Source: Persicimonas caeni
GTDB lineage: Bacteria > Myxococcota_A > Bradymonadia > Bradymonadales > Bradymonadaceae
Assembly: GCF_006517175.1 (NCBI RefSeq)
Contig: NZ_CP041186.1
Coordinates: 6,785,074-6,849,073, forward strand
Direction: 5' to 3'
Length of the DNA: 64,000 nt
Part shown: piece after piece, positions 33,083-49,659 of the stretch
Layout: each line of letters opens with the position of its first letter
Position numbering within the stretch: position 1 is the stretch's first letter
Position numbers and translations under genes: made by a program
The notes under the pieces: generated by a model
The model's database searches: none
Seen by the model: only the letters and a program-made list of their open reading frames with translations
Told to the model about the DNA's origin: nothing

Positions 33083-33148
33083 CGTAAGGGAACCAGGTTC
33101 CCCGACGAGGCGGGTTCCCCGACGAGGCGCATTCTATGCGGGTGTGCG
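33083..33148 (+). repeat. Polarised repeat with an internal 17-bp duplication
   Basis: GGTTCCCCGACGAGGCG occurs twice in direct succession inside an otherwise full copy (right part CATTCTATGCGGGTGTGCG). The duplication joins just after GACGAGGCG. No other feature is visible in 32866-33082 apart from the expected promoter region of the 32865 lipoprotein gene. Confidence 0.9.
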
Positions 33149-33174: not shown

Positions 33175-33957
33175 TCACGCGAGCGCCCGCTCAAAGTAGT
33201 CCATGTAGCCGTGCTGCTCGAAGCCTTGGGCGGCCACGATGGGAGCCGAGGTCTCCCGCCGGGCGTAGAGTCCCAGTCGCTCAATACCGCGCCGTCTTGC
33301 CGCGGTGGCCCGGGCTGCCAACATGGCGGTGTAGACGCCGTGGCCGCGATGCGCCTCGAGCACGCCGCCCGCCCAGATGAGCCCGAAGCTCAATGCGTCG
33401 AAGAAGGTGAGTCCGCAGGCGCCGGCGGGCTCGTCGTTTCGGTAGGCCACGAAGCGCGCGACTCGGCGCCCCGGTCCCGTACAGTCGTCGACCTCGCGGG
33501 CGAGGTCCTCGTCGGAAAGCTCGGGGGCGCGGCCGAAGACAGCGTCACGGATGGCGTAGAGCGTTCGCAGATCGTCGACCGACGCGACCGGGCGCACTTC
33601 GATGCCGTGCGCCGCCTTCCGGCCGTAAGCCTCGGTCCCGATACCGTACGCGAAGTGCCGGTGCCCGGGTTCGTATCCTGCACGGACGAGCGCAGCTCGA
33701 AGCTCCGGGGCGTCGCTCATCGGGTTGATGTGCCACCGGCTCGCGCCTCCCTGGTGGGCGCCCACTACCTCGTCGACCAACGCCTCGACTGGCTCGAGCG
33801 ACGGACGCACGCGCATCACGCGGTTGTAGCCGACGGTGGGCTGGGGTGAATGCGAGTATTTGATCGCCTCGCGCTCGACGACGGTGACGTGCGGCGGCAC
33901 CCAAAAACAGTCGGCGGTGGCGGCCTCGAGCGTCTTGTCTAGGCTGGATGGTTTCAT
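33175..33957 (-). CDS. GNAT-family acetyltransferase, paralogue of 45465-46265
   Basis: 260 residues from the ATG at 33957 (MKPSSLDKTLEAATADCFWV). A long N-terminal domain (1-~125, WVPPHVTVVEREAIKYSHSP) precedes a C-terminal GNAT fold, with acetyl-CoA loop motif GGVLEAHRGHGVYTAMLAAR and a final APIVAAQGFEQHGYMDYF strand-helix. About two thirds of residues match the GNAT at 45465-46265. This copy is alone between polarised repeats, while the other copy sits in an operon. Substrate unknown; the N-terminal domain is not a standard GNAT part. Confidence 0.87.
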   Translation of the reverse strand: MKPSSLDKTLEAATADCFWVPPHVTVVEREAIKYSHSPQPTVGYNRVMRVRPSLEPVEALVDEVVGAHQGGASRWHINPMSDAPELRAALVRAGYEPGHRHFAYGIGTEAYGRKAAHGIEVRPVASVDDLRTLYAIRDAVFGRAPELSDEDLAREVDDCTGPGRRVARFVAYRNDEPAGACGLTFFDALSFGLIWAGGVLEAHRGHGVYTAMLAARATAARRRGIERLGLYARRETSAPIVAAQGFEQHGYMDYFERALA

Positions 33958-35263: not shown

Positions 35264-35304
35264 GGCATTGAGGTCCCGAAAGATCGCCCCGCGAGCCGTC
35301 CCCA

Positions 35305-35834
35305 GGGACCCCGGGTCCTGTGGCGTGGAACCCGGCCGAGACGCCGAAGGACCCTGGGTCCTTTGTCACGAGACGTGACCGTCACGAAAGAGGACCCCCG
35401 GTCCTCGAGAACGTGACTCGGCCTCGGTGCAAAGGACCTCGGGTCCTTTTTCGCGGCGGTCGGACGTCGCGCCGAAGGATGCAGGGTCCTTGTCGGCGGC
35501 GGTCGAGCGCTGCCTGAAAGGATGCAGGGTCCTCGATCGCGCGAGTCGAGCGACGCGCGGAAGGACCCCGGGTTCTCTTTCGCGACGGTGGGGCGTCGCC
35601 TGAAAGGACGCAGGGTCCTTTGGCGTGACACTCGACCTTGGTGCAGAAGGACCGTGGGTCCTCGAGCGCGACGTCGAGCGCAGCGCGCGAGCATGCAGGG
35701 TCGGTCGACATGGCGGTCGAGTGGCGAGGACGAGGACTCGGGGTTGTTGGGGGCGGCGGTCGGGTTGGAAAACAGAGGACCCGAGGGCGTCGAGCGCGAC
35801 GCTCGGTCGTGAGCGAAGGGATGCCGGGTGGTTC
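35305..35834 (+). repeat. Thirteen-unit tandem array of 42-44-bp palindromic units
   Basis: Palindromic cores such as AAGGACCCTGGGTCCTT start at 35305, 35347, 35391, 35431, 35475, 35517, 35561, 35603, 35647, 35691, 35733, 35775 and 35817: spacing 40-44 bp throughout, mostly 42 and 44. GGGTCCT is the best-conserved part; the left arm varies (GGACCC, GGATGC, GGACGC, GGACCG). The last four units are degenerate. Between cores the sequence is related but variable (CGCGnCGGTCGAGCG-like). The period is not a constant multiple of three, so it is not a coding repeat. The 35264-35913 interval has no gene. Confidence 0.9.
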
Positions 35835-42430: not shown

Positions 42431-43384
42431 TCACATACCCAAAGCGTCACGTACATCCTGACGGTCCAACATCTCGACACACCAGCGAAAGTGGCCATCC
42501 GTTCCGTCGGGCGCGTAGGCGTTGCTCGTAAGGAGGGCGTACACCGCGCGGTAAGCCAGAAGCGTGTCGCGGTCGTAGCCGAATGCTCGTTGCATGGTCG
42601 TGGTTAGCTGCTCGTCGAGTTCGCGCGCACAAGGGCCCCACATCTCGAAGATGGCGCTTGTGATGCTCGCGTCGAAAGCTGGATCTCCCACCGTCGACAA
42701 GAAGCCGAAATCGAGCACGGACACGGGCTCAATGTCGTCATTGACCAGGATGTTGGCGGGGCACAAGTCTCCGTGGATTACGCTCATTGTCGCGTTGTCG
42801 CGCGACTCGAGAAAGCTGTGCGTGGCTTCGAGGAGGGCGTCGAGTTTAGACACTTCGCGCTCGAGTTGAGTTGCAAAACGCGCGACCCGTCGGCGTAGCA
42901 GACCTCCGATACTGTCGCTCCAGCGGTCACTTCCTTCCCAGAACGACTCAGTCTCATCGAGCACGAAGACCTGGCGAAACTCGGAAGCTTCGCCGATGGA
43001 TAGAAACGTCGAGAGTACCTCCACGAGGGCATCGACGGCTTGTGGCTTGGGCCGCTTCGCCGTGGAGACAAGGTGTTGGTCGAGAGGGGTTCCCGGTAAG
43101 AAGTCTTCGGTGGTAATCGCGACGCCGTCGACAGTGTCGATTCGGTGAATCTTCGGGGTACGCAGTGAGTGGTTCGCACGCGAGAGCCGGTCGTAGTATG
43201 CGGCGAGCGGCCGGAGGGTGTCGGCCCCTCGATGGAACCACACCTTTGCTACGAGCTCGCCTGGAACGAGCGAGTAGACGGCTCCCTCCATACCTGCGGC
43301 GAGTCGGGTAGCGTCAGGGTAACCTCGTGCTCGAAAGTATTCGAGCCACTGTTTTTCGGCGGAAGCGGCCTTCTTGTCTCTCAT
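42431..43384 (-). CDS. Aminoglycoside phosphotransferase-like (APH) kinase
   Basis: 317 residues. APH/choline-kinase fold: N-lobe with AAGMEGAVYSLVPGELVAKV (nucleotide loop and Lys), Brenner motif VIHGDLCPANILVND (catalytic Asp, Asn) and metal motif SVLDFGFLSTVGDPAFD. Last gene of a four-gene operon; its ATG overlaps the stop of the Nudix-methyltransferase-APH gene (ATGA, 43381-43384). Proteins of this fold phosphorylate small molecules, not only aminoglycosides. The substrate is unknown, and the presence of a second APH domain encoded just upstream suggests related or sequential substrates. Confidence 0.88.
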   Translation of the reverse strand: MRDKKAASAEKQWLEYFRARGYPDATRLAAGMEGAVYSLVPGELVAKVWFHRGADTLRPLAAYYDRLSRANHSLRTPKIHRIDTVDGVAITTEDFLPGTPLDQHLVSTAKRPKPQAVDALVEVLSTFLSIGEASEFRQVFVLDETESFWEGSDRWSDSIGGLLRRRVARFATQLEREVSKLDALLEATHSFLESRDNATMSVIHGDLCPANILVNDDIEPVSVLDFGFLSTVGDPAFDASITSAIFEMWGPCARELDEQLTTTMQRAFGYDRDTLLAYRAVYALLTSNAYAPDGTDGHFRWCVEMLDRQDVRDALGM

Positions 43385-45468
43385 TGGAAGTGATCGCGAA
43401 AGTGTTCGAGGTCATTGCATAACGACTCGATGTTGCCGGCGTCGGCCAAGGTGACAAATGGTTCTCGGTCGTCGGCGGCGAGTTCGGGCATCTCGCCAAT
43501 TCGTCGTCGGTAAAAGGGTTCGACGTGCCGTAGCACCTTATCGGCCGACACCTGTCCATAGCCGCGACAAAGCGCTGCCACTCGCGCTCGAACCATTTCC
43601 CTGCTTATATCTCCGTCGAGCATCCCTCGATTCTCTCGCAGAGGGCCGAGCTCGAACGCCACTTCGGCAACGTCATCTAGCGGGTCGCCGAATCTCGCCA
43701 TGTCCCAGTCGATGACGCCGGAGAATTCGCCGTCGTCGACGATCATGTTCCAGGGGCCGAGGTCGCCGTGGGTGACGACGTGCGCGGGTTCGGGGGCGGT
43801 GGGACCCCAGGCGAAGCTGACGCCGTCGGTCAGCTGGAAATCTGCCGTCGACTCGTGAACCTGCCGAAGCCAACGCCCGACCTGCTCCATCCACTCCGAG
43901 GACTGCACCGCCTCTGGCCATGGGCGGAGAACGGCCTGGCCGTGCAGATGCGTCAGTATCTCGCTACTGCCGTCGATGGCGACGAAACGAGGCACGCCCG
44001 CGACTTCACGCTGCTCGAGATGGTCGAGCAACTGATGGACCGCCTGGCTCCAGGGCCTCAGCGGGCGCCTTATATGCGCGCCGTCGGTCCAGACTTCGGT
44101 CAGGGTGCCTTCGCCCAGGCGGGTCCATGAGGAGGAGTTGTTGTTGCGATTCGTTCCTCGGCCGAGGCGCTCGAAGCAGGCGAATAGTAGCGACGTTCGG
44201 TAAGGGAGCCTATCAGGCTTGCCATACTCGTCGTCGACGGCGTCGAAGAAGCCGCTTTTGACGAAGTCACGGCCGCGCTCGTCGAGCGCTGCGAAGTTGT
44301 ACATCAGCGACAGGCTCTCCCACACCTGCTCGGTGTCTGCATCGAGCTCGAGGGTGAGCGACTGGGGCGGAGTGCGTGCTTCGAATCCAGTCTTGCGACC
44401 AAAGAGCGACAGGAGTCCTTCTTCAGTGCGCGTCCGGTTGTCGCCAAGCCTCGGGCAAGCACCGCCGAACTGAGCCACGGCGTCTTTCATGAGACACTTG
44501 AATGTCCTGCCAATCCCAGCTGGCCAGGAGCCGTCACTGACAATCAGGCCAACAACGCCTCCTGGACGTAACACACGGCCAATCTCGGCGACGACCTCTT
44601 CGACCTCCTCCATGAGCATCAGCGACATGTGGCACAACACGACGTCGATCGATGCGTCGGCCAACGGCAGCTCTTGAGCTCGCGCGTTCAGTAGCTCCGG
44701 CTCACAGAGAGCAAGACGCGCTCGAGCTGCCTCGAGTTCAGCGTCGCTGACGTCGACTCCGATGAGTCGAGCGTCCGGAAGCTGTTCGTGCACGAGCTCG
44801 AGTAGAAACCCATCGCCGCAGGCCAGGTCGAGAACGGTCGCGCCTCGTTCGGCCGAGGTCGCGACGGAGCACAACATCTCATAGCTCGACCGGCCTGATT
44901 CGGTGCGTCCGCGGGCGAGGGTCTTGGTTGTGGCGCCGGCGTGGCGTTGGTGAAAGGTCTGGAGGAGTCTTTGGCCGGGGGAGAGGGCACTTGTCATGGG
45001 AATTCCATCTTCATCTGAGAACGCGGTTTTATCTGAGAACGCGGTCAATGCCTCCTGCGCGATGGGCGTCAGTTGCGTTCCCGGCAACTGGTCGAGCGGT
45101 AGCCACACCGCGTGGGAGACATCCTCATTGTCGACGACCACGGCCGGTTCGACAGCGTCGGGCGACGAGGCTCGATAGATTAGCGCCACGTGGAGGAGTT
45201 CTTCTGGCTGTGGTCGGTCGAGGAGATGACAACATTGGATAACCGTCGTCGTCAGCGGTTGCGGTGCGTCCAGGCGAAGCCCGGTCTCTTCTTGCACCTC
45301 TCGAAAGAGAGCCTCGACCGGACTTTCGTTCGTTTCGAGTCCGCCGCCCGGGAGATCCCAGCAGCCACGGTACGGCCCGCGCTGTTTGCGCACGAGCAAG
45401 ACGGCGTCGTTCTCGACGAGCAGGGCGTACGCTCCCACGTGGCGATGCCTTACATCAATTTTCGTCAT
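43381..45468 (-). CDS. Three-domain fusion: Nudix hydrolase, SAM methyltransferase, APH kinase
   Basis: 695 residues. (1) Nudix domain, residues ~1-150; the Nudix box GGGLETNESPVEALFREVQE then ETGL (41-64) has all catalytic Glu residues. (2) Class I methyltransferase, ~160-440; motif I VLDLACGDGF (212-221), acidic strand-2 end VDVSDAELEAA, VLCHMSLML and VLRPGGVVGL. (3) APH kinase, ~445-695; HGDLGPWNMI (567-576) and VIDWDMARFGDP (585-596). An internal Met (158, MTSALSPGQRLL) marks where a stand-alone methyltransferase would start. Just before it, the linker contains a short tandem repeat (AFSDK/AFSDE). ATGA overlaps on both sides couple it to its neighbours. The combination is unknown to me; a nucleotide-linked or nucleoside-like small molecule is a reasonable guess for the substrate. 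Confidence 0.9.
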   Translation of the reverse strand: MTKIDVRHRHVGAYALLVENDAVLLVRKQRGPYRGCWDLPGGGLETNESPVEALFREVQEETGLRLDAPQPLTTTVIQCCHLLDRPQPEELLHVALIYRASSPDAVEPAVVVDNEDVSHAVWLPLDQLPGTQLTPIAQEALTAFSDKTAFSDEDGIPMTSALSPGQRLLQTFHQRHAGATTKTLARGRTESGRSSYEMLCSVATSAERGATVLDLACGDGFLLELVHEQLPDARLIGVDVSDAELEAARARLALCEPELLNARAQELPLADASIDVVLCHMSLMLMEEVEEVVAEIGRVLRPGGVVGLIVSDGSWPAGIGRTFKCLMKDAVAQFGGACPRLGDNRTRTEEGLLSLFGRKTGFEARTPPQSLTLELDADTEQVWESLSLMYNFAALDERGRDFVKSGFFDAVDDEYGKPDRLPYRTSLLFACFERLGRGTNRNNNSSSWTRLGEGTLTEVWTDGAHIRRPLRPWSQAVHQLLDHLEQREVAGVPRFVAIDGSSEILTHLHGQAVLRPWPEAVQSSEWMEQVGRWLRQVHESTADFQLTDGVSFAWGPTAPEPAHVVTHGDLGPWNMIVDDGEFSGVIDWDMARFGDPLDDVAEVAFELGPLRENRGMLDGDISREMVRARVAALCRGYGQVSADKVLRHVEPFYRRRIGEMPELAADDREPFVTLADAGNIESLCNDLEHFRDHFQ

Positions 45469-46265
45469 GCCTCTGCCCGTAGCGACGTCGACTCACGCTC
45501 GAAATAGTCCAAGTACCCGTGCCGCTCGAACCCCTGTGCGGCCACAATCGGAGCGGACGTCTCCTCCCTAGCGTAAAGCCCGAGCCACTCGATGCCGCGC
45601 TGTTTTGCTGCGCGGGCTCGGGCGGCCAGCAAGGCGGTGTAGACGCCGTGGCCACGGTGCGCCTCGAGCACGCCGCCCGCCCAGACGAGCCCAAAGCTCA
45701 ATTCGTCGAAGAACGTCAGCCCGCATGCGCCGGCGAGTTCACCCTTTCGGTATGCTAGGAAACGGGCGACGCGGCGCTCCGGGCCGGTGCAGGCGTCGAC
45801 CTCGCGGGCGAGGTCTTCGTTCGAGAGGTCGGGGTTGCGCCCGAAGACGTCGGCGCGGATTTCGTAGAGCGCACGCAGATCGTCGACCGACGCGACCTGA
45901 TGCACCTCGATATCCGACGCGGGCTTGCGGTCGTAGGCGTCTGTGCGGATGCCGTAGGCGAAGTGTCGGTGCCCCGGGGCGTATCCGGCGTCGGTGAGCG
46001 CACGCCGGAGCCTCGGGTTGTCACCCATTGGGTTAATATGCCATCGGCTCGAGCCGCCTTCGTGGGCGTCCAGTACCTCTTCGAGTAGAACTTCGGGAGG
46101 TTCGACGTTGGGCCGCACGCGCACCACGCGGTTGTAGCCGACCGATGGCTGTGGCGAATGGGTGTATTTGATCGCTTCGCGCTCCACGACCTGCACATGC
46201 GGCGGCACCCAGAAGCAGTCGGCGGTGGCCGTCTCGAGGATGTTGTCGAGGGGTGTTGGCTTCAT
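45465..46265 (-). CDS. GNAT-family acetyltransferase, paralogue of 33175-33957
   Basis: 266 residues from the ATG at 46265. N-terminal domain (WVPPHVQVVEREAIKYTHSP) then GNAT fold with AGGVLEAHRGHGVYTALLAA as acetyl-CoA loop and APIVAAQGFERHGYLDYFER near the end. Second gene of the operon, with ATGA overlaps at both ends (46262-46265 upstream, 45465-45468 downstream), so it should be made in fixed ratio with the others. Its paralogue 12 kb away lies alone in a repeat-bounded unit, with most residues shared. Confidence 0.88.
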   Translation of the reverse strand: MKPTPLDNILETATADCFWVPPHVQVVEREAIKYTHSPQPSVGYNRVVRVRPNVEPPEVLLEEVLDAHEGGSSRWHINPMGDNPRLRRALTDAGYAPGHRHFAYGIRTDAYDRKPASDIEVHQVASVDDLRALYEIRADVFGRNPDLSNEDLAREVDACTGPERRVARFLAYRKGELAGACGLTFFDELSFGLVWAGGVLEAHRGHGVYTALLAARARAAKQRGIEWLGLYAREETSAPIVAAQGFERHGYLDYFERESTSLRAEA

Positions 46266-47152
46266 GATGTCTGACCTTTTTTCCAATCTTTGCTCTTCAA
46301 CTCCATGCGCAGCTTGGCGTAGGAAACGTCGTCGATCACGACCGCGTCTTCGAGTACCTCGGCGGTCTCGAAGCCGAGGCTCTCGAAGAGGGCGACGGCG
46401 ACGTCGTTGTCGGCGCGAACGACCAGCCAGACGTGTTTCAGCTTCATTTCGTCGAAGCCGTAGTCGAGCATCAACTCCATGGCCTCTCGACCGAGGCCGC
46501 GACCCCGCGCCTTGGCTTCTCCGAGGACAATCGAAAGCTCGGCCGACTCCCCGTCGACGACATCACGGTAGCTCGCCGAGCCGATGGTCACTCCGTCGAG
46601 AAGTTCAATGCTTACGTCGAAGACCGGACGGTTCGAGTCGGTGACCATTTCGAGATAGTCACGGATATCCTCGATGGGAAGCTCATCTTTTCCGGCGAGC
46701 GGGAGATAGCGGGTGACCTGCGGGTCGGCGAACCACTTGTGGCGAAGTGGTGCGTCCTCCATGAGCGGTTTTCGGAGCCGAAGGTGAGCGCCAGTGCTGT
46801 AGATGTGGTCTGAAGGGGCGTCGCATTCCATATCATCTACCGTTAGATCTAGCAGCAACTCGGGCTCGACCCGCTTGCCGAGCGTATCGCGCTGGATTGC
46901 CCGGTGCTCGAGGTCGATGGGAAGGGTCGACTCGGCATAGACTCGTCGGGCCTGTTCGAGATCTTCGGCCTCGATCGCGTATACCAAAACATAGCCGTCG
47001 TCGTCTTCCAGCAGCCAGGCCTTCTCCGAGCGCACACCTTCTTGCTCGAAGGACGCGAAGATCTCCTCGCGGCGGTCCTTCAACTCGCGCATCCAAGTGC
47101 GAAGCTTGTCGACTTTACCCGGTTTAACTCGTTTGAATGATATTTGGAGCAT
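46262..47152 (-). CDS. DUF6176-like domain fused to a RimJ/RimL-type GNAT
   Basis: 296 residues from the ATG at 47152, which is very close to a strong GGAGGAG. Residues 1-~100 resemble DUF6176 (MLQISFKRVKPGKVDKLRTW; REEIFASFEQEGVRSEKAWL; YVLVYAIEAEDLEQARRVY), a small ferredoxin-like fold. Residues ~125-290 are a GNAT of the ribosomal-protein/aminoglycoside 6'-type (HLRLRKPLMEDAPLRHKWFA; GEAKARGRGLGREAMELMLD; VVRADNDVAVALFESLGFET). First gene of the four-gene operon. Its ribosome binding site is complementary to an upstream segment of the leader, so translation of the whole coupled operon could be gated here. Confidence 0.85.
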   Translation of the reverse strand: MLQISFKRVKPGKVDKLRTWMRELKDRREEIFASFEQEGVRSEKAWLLEDDDGYVLVYAIEAEDLEQARRVYAESTLPIDLEHRAIQRDTLGKRVEPELLLDLTVDDMECDAPSDHIYSTGAHLRLRKPLMEDAPLRHKWFADPQVTRYLPLAGKDELPIEDIRDYLEMVTDSNRPVFDVSIELLDGVTIGSASYRDVVDGESAELSIVLGEAKARGRGLGREAMELMLDYGFDEMKLKHVWLVVRADNDVAVALFESLGFETAEVLEDAVVIDDVSYAKLRMELKSKDWKKGQTS

Positions 47153-47154
47153 GT

Positions 47155-47240
47155 CTCCTCCGAAACACAATGCGCCAGCCCGTTCGTCGGAGGAGCTACC
47201 ATGAACGCGAAAAGCCCCGTCCGACGAATCGGGCGGGGCG
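47155..47240 (-). promoter_or_regulatory. Switch-like leader RNA of the four-gene operon
   Basis: On the minus strand, in transcript order: a terminator-like hairpin GCCCCGCC (47239-47232) with GACGGGGC (47221-47214) followed by TTTT (47213-47210); then CTCCTCCGACGAAC (47195-47182); then TCGGAGGAG (47163-47155), which is the ribosome binding site. CTCCTCCGA is a perfect 9-nt complement of the ribosome binding site, and the overlapping TCCGACGAA is a perfect 9-nt complement of TTCGTCGGA (47228-47220) inside the terminator hairpin. The two pairings share TCCGA and exclude each other, as in a riboswitch or attenuator. The ligand or signal is unknown. Confidence 0.55.
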
Positions 47241-47529
47241 CGTAACCTTGTTTAGCTGACCGACGAAATCAGCACGCACACCCGCTCGTATCACTGTGTT
47301 CGCGACACATCGTACAGCCGGCGTTGGGGGATGCTGCGTTCATGGCGTACACTCGTTGAACGTCGGTCAGGTTGTTGTTAGCTACCAGACGTGCAGAGGC
47401 TGCGCAACTTCAACCGGCCAGCGAATCCCTTGCATAGCCAGCGTCGGTGGAGCGATCACCGCTTTCTGGTGCACGACGACGAGGTGGCGTGGCGTTCGGC
47501 TTGTTCTCGAACTTCCAAGGAGCAGTGAG

Positions 47530-49610: not shown

Positions 49611-49659
49611 TGCCCGGGAACCAGGTTCCCCGACGAGGCCCACGCTATGCGGGTGTGCG
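49611..49659 (+). repeat. Polarised repeat, full copy
   Basis: Core GGGAACCAGGTTCCCC, right part CACGCTATGCGGGTGTGCG, 50 bp upstream of the cupin start codon. Confidence 0.87.

Follow-up and report, generated by a model that had tools for sequence, protein, structure and literature searches.

A cysteine-rich upstream ORF, a terminator-like hairpin and alternative pairings form a candidate transcription attenuator before DUF6176 genes in Persicimonas caeni

In a 64,000-nucleotide stretch of the Persicimonas caeni genome (the window, meaning the whole stretch of DNA analysed here), we found that a four-gene operon led by a DUF6176 gene is preceded by a short Cys-rich ORF, a terminator-like hairpin and a set of predicted alternative pairings, and that a second copy of this leader lies elsewhere in the same genome. 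The reading that we favour, though tentatively, is that the element may be a leader-peptide transcription attenuator with cysteine as its signal, because the order of its parts fits: ORF, antiterminator strand in the last codons, terminator, genes. In attenuators of the trp and his type, a short ORF carrying codons for one amino acid is followed by an antiterminator strand, a terminator and the controlled genes. The present leader has the same layout, but here Cys would serve as the control codon, the genes under control form no known biosynthetic pathway, and the window copy possibly has an added layer at the ribosome-binding site (RBS). Every leader and operon feature of the window is carried by the minus strand (Table 1), which the original prediction, of an on/off switch in this leader, had left unstated. 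That prediction also missed the upstream ORF, which lies beyond the region it covered, and the antiterminator. Its claim that gene 1 is coupled to the other three genes is borne out by ATGA overlaps that chain all four ORFs.

Table 1. Leader and operon features in the window
Feature	Position	Strand	Description
Candidate promoter, weak	47379-47407	-	TTGCGC-17-TAGCTA; aligns with TTGCGA-17-TACCCA before the paralogue
Upstream ORF, Cys-rich	47269-47343	-	MNAASPNAGCTMCREHSDTSGCAC; 24 codons; 25-codon counterpart in the paralogue
Region 2, antiterminator strand	47274-47285	-	GCGGGUGUGCGU, inside the final codons of the upstream ORF; part of the longest invariant run (18 nt); pairs with region 3
Region 3	47233-47243	-	ACGCGCCCCGC; takes in the initial part of the terminator 5' arm
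Terminator-like intrinsic hairpin (3:4) and UUUU	47210-47239	-	10 pairs, -17.8 kcal/mol
Region 4, terminator 3' arm	47214-47228	-	UUCGUCGGACGGGGC; 14 pairs and one bulged C to region 5
Region 5	47183-47196	-	GCUCCUCCGACGAA; the anti-RBS (47187-47195) lies within it; both copies keep CCUCCGAC
Extended hairpin	47172-47241	-	Predicted to displace the terminator after region 5 has been transcribed; folding energy -53.3 kcal/mol in the window
Region 6, RBS of gene 1	47155-47163	-	UCGGAGGAG; 3-8 nt before ATG 47152
Gene 1	46262-47152	-	DUF6176 domain fused to GNAT acetyltransferase; PF19673 1e-17, PF13302 6.5e-22
Gene 2	45465-46265	-	GNAT acetyltransferase; PF00583 5.5e-7; ATGA overlap with gene 1
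Gene 3	43381-45468	-	NUDIX, methyltransferase and APH domains; PF00293, PF08241, PF01636
Gene 4	42431-43384	-	APH-like phosphotransferase; PF01636 8.3e-16

The second leader copy lies at about C1:290368-290573 of the same genome, a single contig of 8.05 Mb, and precedes a DUF6176 gene that stands alone. The two leaders are 66% identical from the upstream ORF to the gene start, and the first 303 nt of gene 1 and its paralogue are 79% identical. Upstream ORF, terminator and downstream block are common to both copies, with the order ORF, terminator, DUF6176 the same in each. The longest invariant runs between them are 18, 14, 11, 9 and 8 nt, and the four longest together exceed those of shuffled alignment columns (P = 0.0008; this and the other P values reported here are nominal and were chosen after looking; the comparison is of two sequences in one genome, and several pairings had been viewed before the antiterminator pairings were tested). 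The runs cover CGAGCGGGTGTGCGTGCT at the end of the upstream ORF, the two arms of the terminator and the T residues that begin its tail, GCGTTCATG, followed by CCTCCGAC; among the four longest are region 2 and the terminator 3' arm. Because the second copy precedes a DUF6176 gene alone, the leader is, judging by these two copies, tied to DUF6176 in this genome and not to resistance-like enzymes. The paralogous DUF6176 gene (L003 3410-5867) is flanked by two similar membrane-protein-like ORFs with common upstream sequence, which suggests a local duplication at this locus.

The upstream ORF of the paralogue reads MNTTSTLTCCCITCRERGEASGCAC. Both ORFs start and stop at matching places, with TGA as the stop codon in the window and TAA in the paralogue; they differ by an in-frame 3-nt indel and carry Cys at matching positions. 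Cys is enriched in the two copies relative to stop-free shuffles (P = 0.035 and 0.003), and accounts for 1.5% of residues in a sample of the window's proteins. These candidate control codons also lie ahead of the antiterminator strand: Cys codons 10 and 13 of the window ORF and 9, 10, 11 and 14 of the paralogue ORF precede region 2, three of them being consecutive (CCC) in the paralogue and none in the window copy. Apart from C..CRE and SGCAC the peptide is poorly conserved, and the substitutions between the two copies are not concentrated at third codon positions, which argues against strong conservation of the whole peptide. We did not use the invariant SGCAC codons as evidence, which would be too weak, since 18 of the 38 four-fold sites of gene 1 are likewise unchanged. 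The Shine–Dalgarno (SD) sequence before the ORF is weak, and the ORF by itself does not stand out in folding energy (z = -0.1 and -1.4 in the two copies). The start of the ORF (CCATGAACGC, 47334-47345) is complementary to the post-terminator sequence GCGTTCATGG (47199-47208) over 10 nt in the window and 6 nt in the paralogue. A pattern scan for a promoter upstream of the leader found none; the weak candidate in Table 1, in which about half of the consensus positions agree, would leave a 5' leader of about 30 nt before the upstream ORF.

Between the ORF and the genes lies a predicted intrinsic terminator. Its hairpin, GCCCCGCCCGATTCGTCGGACGGGGC at 47214-47239 followed by TTTT at 47210-47213, has all 10 pairs unchanged between the copies. 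The T run is short (TTTT in the window, TTT in the paralogue), and other genomic hairpins of this sequence type carry longer or split T runs; so short a run would fit a leaky terminator and may make for a poor one. In the window the competing 2:3 helix has 11 pairs with a single bulged U; the paralogue has one more mismatch. In an RNA ending after the terminator 5' arm, with a ribosome on the Cys codons, 2:3 is predicted to fold in both copies, where it would exclude the terminator; with the ribosome at the stop codon, 2:3 is impossible and the terminator is predicted to form, again in both. The energy that the 5' arm gains from 2:3 is -15.6 kcal/mol in the window, where shuffles average -5.8 (P = 0.001), and -11.1 kcal/mol in the paralogue, where they average -6.9 (P = 0.08). 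Equally strong pairing with both terminators was reached by about 2% of shuffles of the shared strand or synonymous rewrites of SGCAC. In the complete leader, the terminator and antiterminator folds are near-equal in predicted energy.

If the leader is an attenuator, RNA polymerase would transcribe the short Cys-rich ORF and then the terminator. A ribosome that finished the ORF would cover region 2 while at the stop codon, the 3:4 terminator would form and transcription would end before gene 1. A ribosome that stalled earlier, most likely at the Cys codons when charged tRNA-Cys is short, would leave 2:3 to pair, no terminator would form and the operon would be expressed. Region 4, the 3' arm thus set free, could in the window copy pair with the anti-RBS (region 5), which would keep the RBS open; in read-through RNA that kept the terminator, the anti-RBS could instead pair with the RBS (5:6). 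The ORF, the hairpin, the alternative pairings and their occurrence in both copies can be read from the sequence, and from these we infer the transcription start, translation of the ORF, termination, stalling and its signal, and the regulation itself. It is rather unlikely that all five segments (ORF end, terminator 5' arm, 3' arm, anti-RBS and RBS) work as a single chain, in which one Cys-stalled ribosome both prevents termination and uncovers the RBS, tying the DUF6176-led operon to cysteine supply. The favoured reading, if true, would extend cysteine-codon attenuators beyond mycobacteria to one that works through a terminator, and it would give a first regulatory clue for DUF6176, on which we found no paper in the literature searched.

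The pairings on which the original prediction was built are exact. The RBS TCGGAGGAG (47155-47163) is a perfect complement of CTCCTCCGA (47187-47195), TTCGTCGGA (47220-47228), inside the hairpin ending in TTTT, is a perfect complement of TCCGACGAA (47183-47191), and the two helices have five bases in common (47187-47191). Among the 40 SD-bearing starts of ORFs of at least 100 aa in the window, this 9-nt RBS complement is the longest, the next being 8, 7 and 7 nt, and 3 of 10,000 dinucleotide shuffles of its own upstream 80 nt reached 9 nt (P = 0.0003, nominal for a case picked after reading 64 kb). In the window, the predicted mean pairing of GGAGGAG is 0.98 with the terminator and anti-RBS helix and 0.43-0.45 in the alternative (antiterminator) folds. 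In the paralogue the terminator fold (0.67-0.75) and the alternatives (0.63-0.76) give similar values, so no RBS switch is predicted there. Between the copies, the anti-RBS/RBS helix has five invariant pairs, one wobble, three broken pairs and no compensatory change; of the four pairs on the loop side of the TTCGTCGGA helix, one has a compensatory change and three are broken. The exclusive pairings would therefore gate the RBS in the window as proposed, but three of the nine RBS pairs are broken in the paralogue without compensation, and covariation, which the original prediction had set as its test, speaks mostly against the two helices when judged on the single homologous leader found. At most, the RBS helix may add a level of translational control to the window copy, and the apparent RBS switch must be read jointly with the upstream ORF.

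Pairing between regions 4 and 5 is predicted at -23.2 kcal/mol in the window (shuffle P = 0.006) and -16.7 kcal/mol in the paralogue (P = 0.11). The extended hairpin pairs both terminator arms with the sequence that follows, TTCGTCGGA/TCCGACGAA forming its middle. Between the copies it has 17 invariant, 2 double compensatory, 2 wobble and 4 broken pairs; variable pairs are kept and lost in equal number (four each), close to the chance expectation, so the hairpin lacks proof by covariation. Both bases of a conserved C.A mismatch in the terminator are paired in the extended hairpin, which we counted in its favour. Its energy is better than that of shuffles in the window (z = -5.3) but not in the paralogue (z = 0.4). 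In the window it beats the terminator plus anti-RBS helix by 10 kcal/mol, and masking of the RBS would therefore be a kinetic state. On the plus strand, 47189-47245 holds GGAGGAG, then ATG at 47202 and a 14-codon ORF (MNAKSPVRRIGRGA) antisense to the terminator; the spacing of GGAGG and ATG is kept in the paralogue, where the differences follow the hairpin loop. An N-terminal extension of gene 1 from a minus-strand ATG at 47202 was rejected: such a start shares the reading frame of the gene in the paralogue but not in the window.

Several other explanations of the leader bear on the same evidence. That the anti-RBS at 47187-47195 alternates between RBS and terminator arm and gates translation alone, perhaps with a ligand, is highly unlikely: the exact 9-nt complement, first of the 40 starts, and the near-complete RBS pairing in the window argue for it, but the uncompensated breaks and lack of a predicted switch in the paralogue, the 10 kcal/mol advantage of the extended hairpin and the lack of an Rfam match argue against it. 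An Rfam scan of the window gave no gathering-level match except a tRNA (tRNA-Leu), and a scan of the leader gave no riboswitch, only a chance microRNA match (E = 4.8). Thus neither a conserved aptamer nor a known riboswitch family was found, and the compensatory changes expected of a ligand riboswitch were not established in the two helices, with two sequences to compare. The original prediction had also drawn a parallel to leaders of aminoglycoside-resistance genes. An aminoglycoside riboswitch was proposed for integron aac/aad leaders, with masking of the RBS upstream of aminoglycoside-modifying enzyme genes as the point of likeness (PMC7588185), but such a riboswitch in integron cassettes was contradicted by experiment, the element being the integron integration site (PMC9410878); the present leader instead has a Cys-rich ORF and a terminator. 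With the second leader preceding a DUF6176 gene only and no Rfam riboswitch match, the parallel is weak, and a drug-sensing riboswitch is disfavoured. The conserved upstream ORF and antiterminator argue for attenuation driven by the ribosome rather than by a ligand. Such a ribosome might also stall in response to an antibiotic or general translation stress and not to lack of cysteine. In the drug-induced transcription attenuators of ermK and mef-mel, a stalled ribosome on the leader ORF favours the antiterminator over an intrinsic terminator (PMC5418344), the same logic as proposed here, and enzymes resembling acetyltransferases, kinases and methyltransferases are encoded in the window operon. 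However, the paralogue leader precedes only a DUF6176 gene and Cys codons are the feature common to both copies, so a drug or stress signal seems quite improbable. The present sequences are unrelated to those of ermK and mef-mel, and nothing seen here points to a drug.

It is somewhat unlikely that the ORF is an ordinary gene for a small Cys-rich peptide, which might bind metal or thiols, and that the terminator belongs to this gene, with DUF6176 expressed by leakage or from its own promoter and the pairings being by-products of G+C richness and shared descent. Conservation of ORF and terminator together would suit such a gene, as would the C-x2-C and C-terminal C-x-C motifs common to both copies, the weak advantage of the paralogue pairing over shuffles and the even split of kept and lost variable pairs in the extended hairpin. 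The peptide, however, is poorly conserved outside C..CRE and SGCAC, gene, terminator and DUF6176 keep the same order in both copies, and the window pairing is far from its shuffles. It is scarcely credible that the ORF encodes a precursor of a modified peptide, tailored by the enzymes of the operon. In its favour, GNAT, methyltransferase and APH-like enzymes are encoded beside a small peptide that is rich in Cys and has a Cys at its C terminus, but the paralogue peptide adjoins DUF6176 alone, no typical peptide-modifying family was found in the five neighbouring proteins scanned, and conservation extends beyond residues to codons. Cysteine as the signal of the favoured attenuator has a counterpart in the mycobacterial polycysteine attenuators (Canestrari 2020), in which, according to passages of PMC9031893 and PMC9094748, a Cys-rich short upstream ORF is proposed to sense cysteine supply through ribosome speed. 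Those ORFs are leaderless, have contiguous Cys codons and are described in the same passages as acting on downstream translation, whereas the present leader has an intrinsic-terminator-like hairpin and likely a 5' leader, and its Cys codons in the window are separated and not contiguous as in the mycobacterial class, in which we therefore do not place it.

Beyond the two known copies, we found no further homologous leader by DNA search of 116 related genomes, by a peptide-like DNA pattern in 190 related genomes or by a covariance model in 21 family genomes. These searches gave short or weak matches, mostly to the terminator part, and the weak full-length matches were one in G000 and three in relatives (E = 0.03-0.17). 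We also drew DUF6176 homologues from relatives, GTDB contigs, 379 genomes of the phylum, plasmids and viral contigs; a Cys-rich short ORF of the leader type was absent from the upstream regions inspected, which came from the records other than plasmids. Outside this genome, the closest homologue of the gene 1 DUF6176 domain (75% identity) is encoded in G008; a GNAT gene immediately precedes it, and the leader is absent. Near the beginning of the domain, this homologue (L013, reverse complement, from 1501) carries an in-frame TAG, which reflects either a broken gene or a sequencing error. Within the window, gene 2 has a paralogue 12 kb off (33175-33957; 77% protein identity), upstream of which no such leader was found.

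Two families of repeats were observed elsewhere in the window. The near-palindromic repeat TCGGGGAACCTGGTTCCC occurs, with at most 2 mismatches, at 15 sites between 9446 and 49633 (for example, 33088-33105 and 49616-49633), all reading on the minus strand; the 8.05-Mb genome holds 18 exact copies, 8 of them in the window. An intergenic array of AAGGACCC.G.GTCCTT-like palindromes spans 35304-35663, with a spacing of 43 bp and one step of 85-86.
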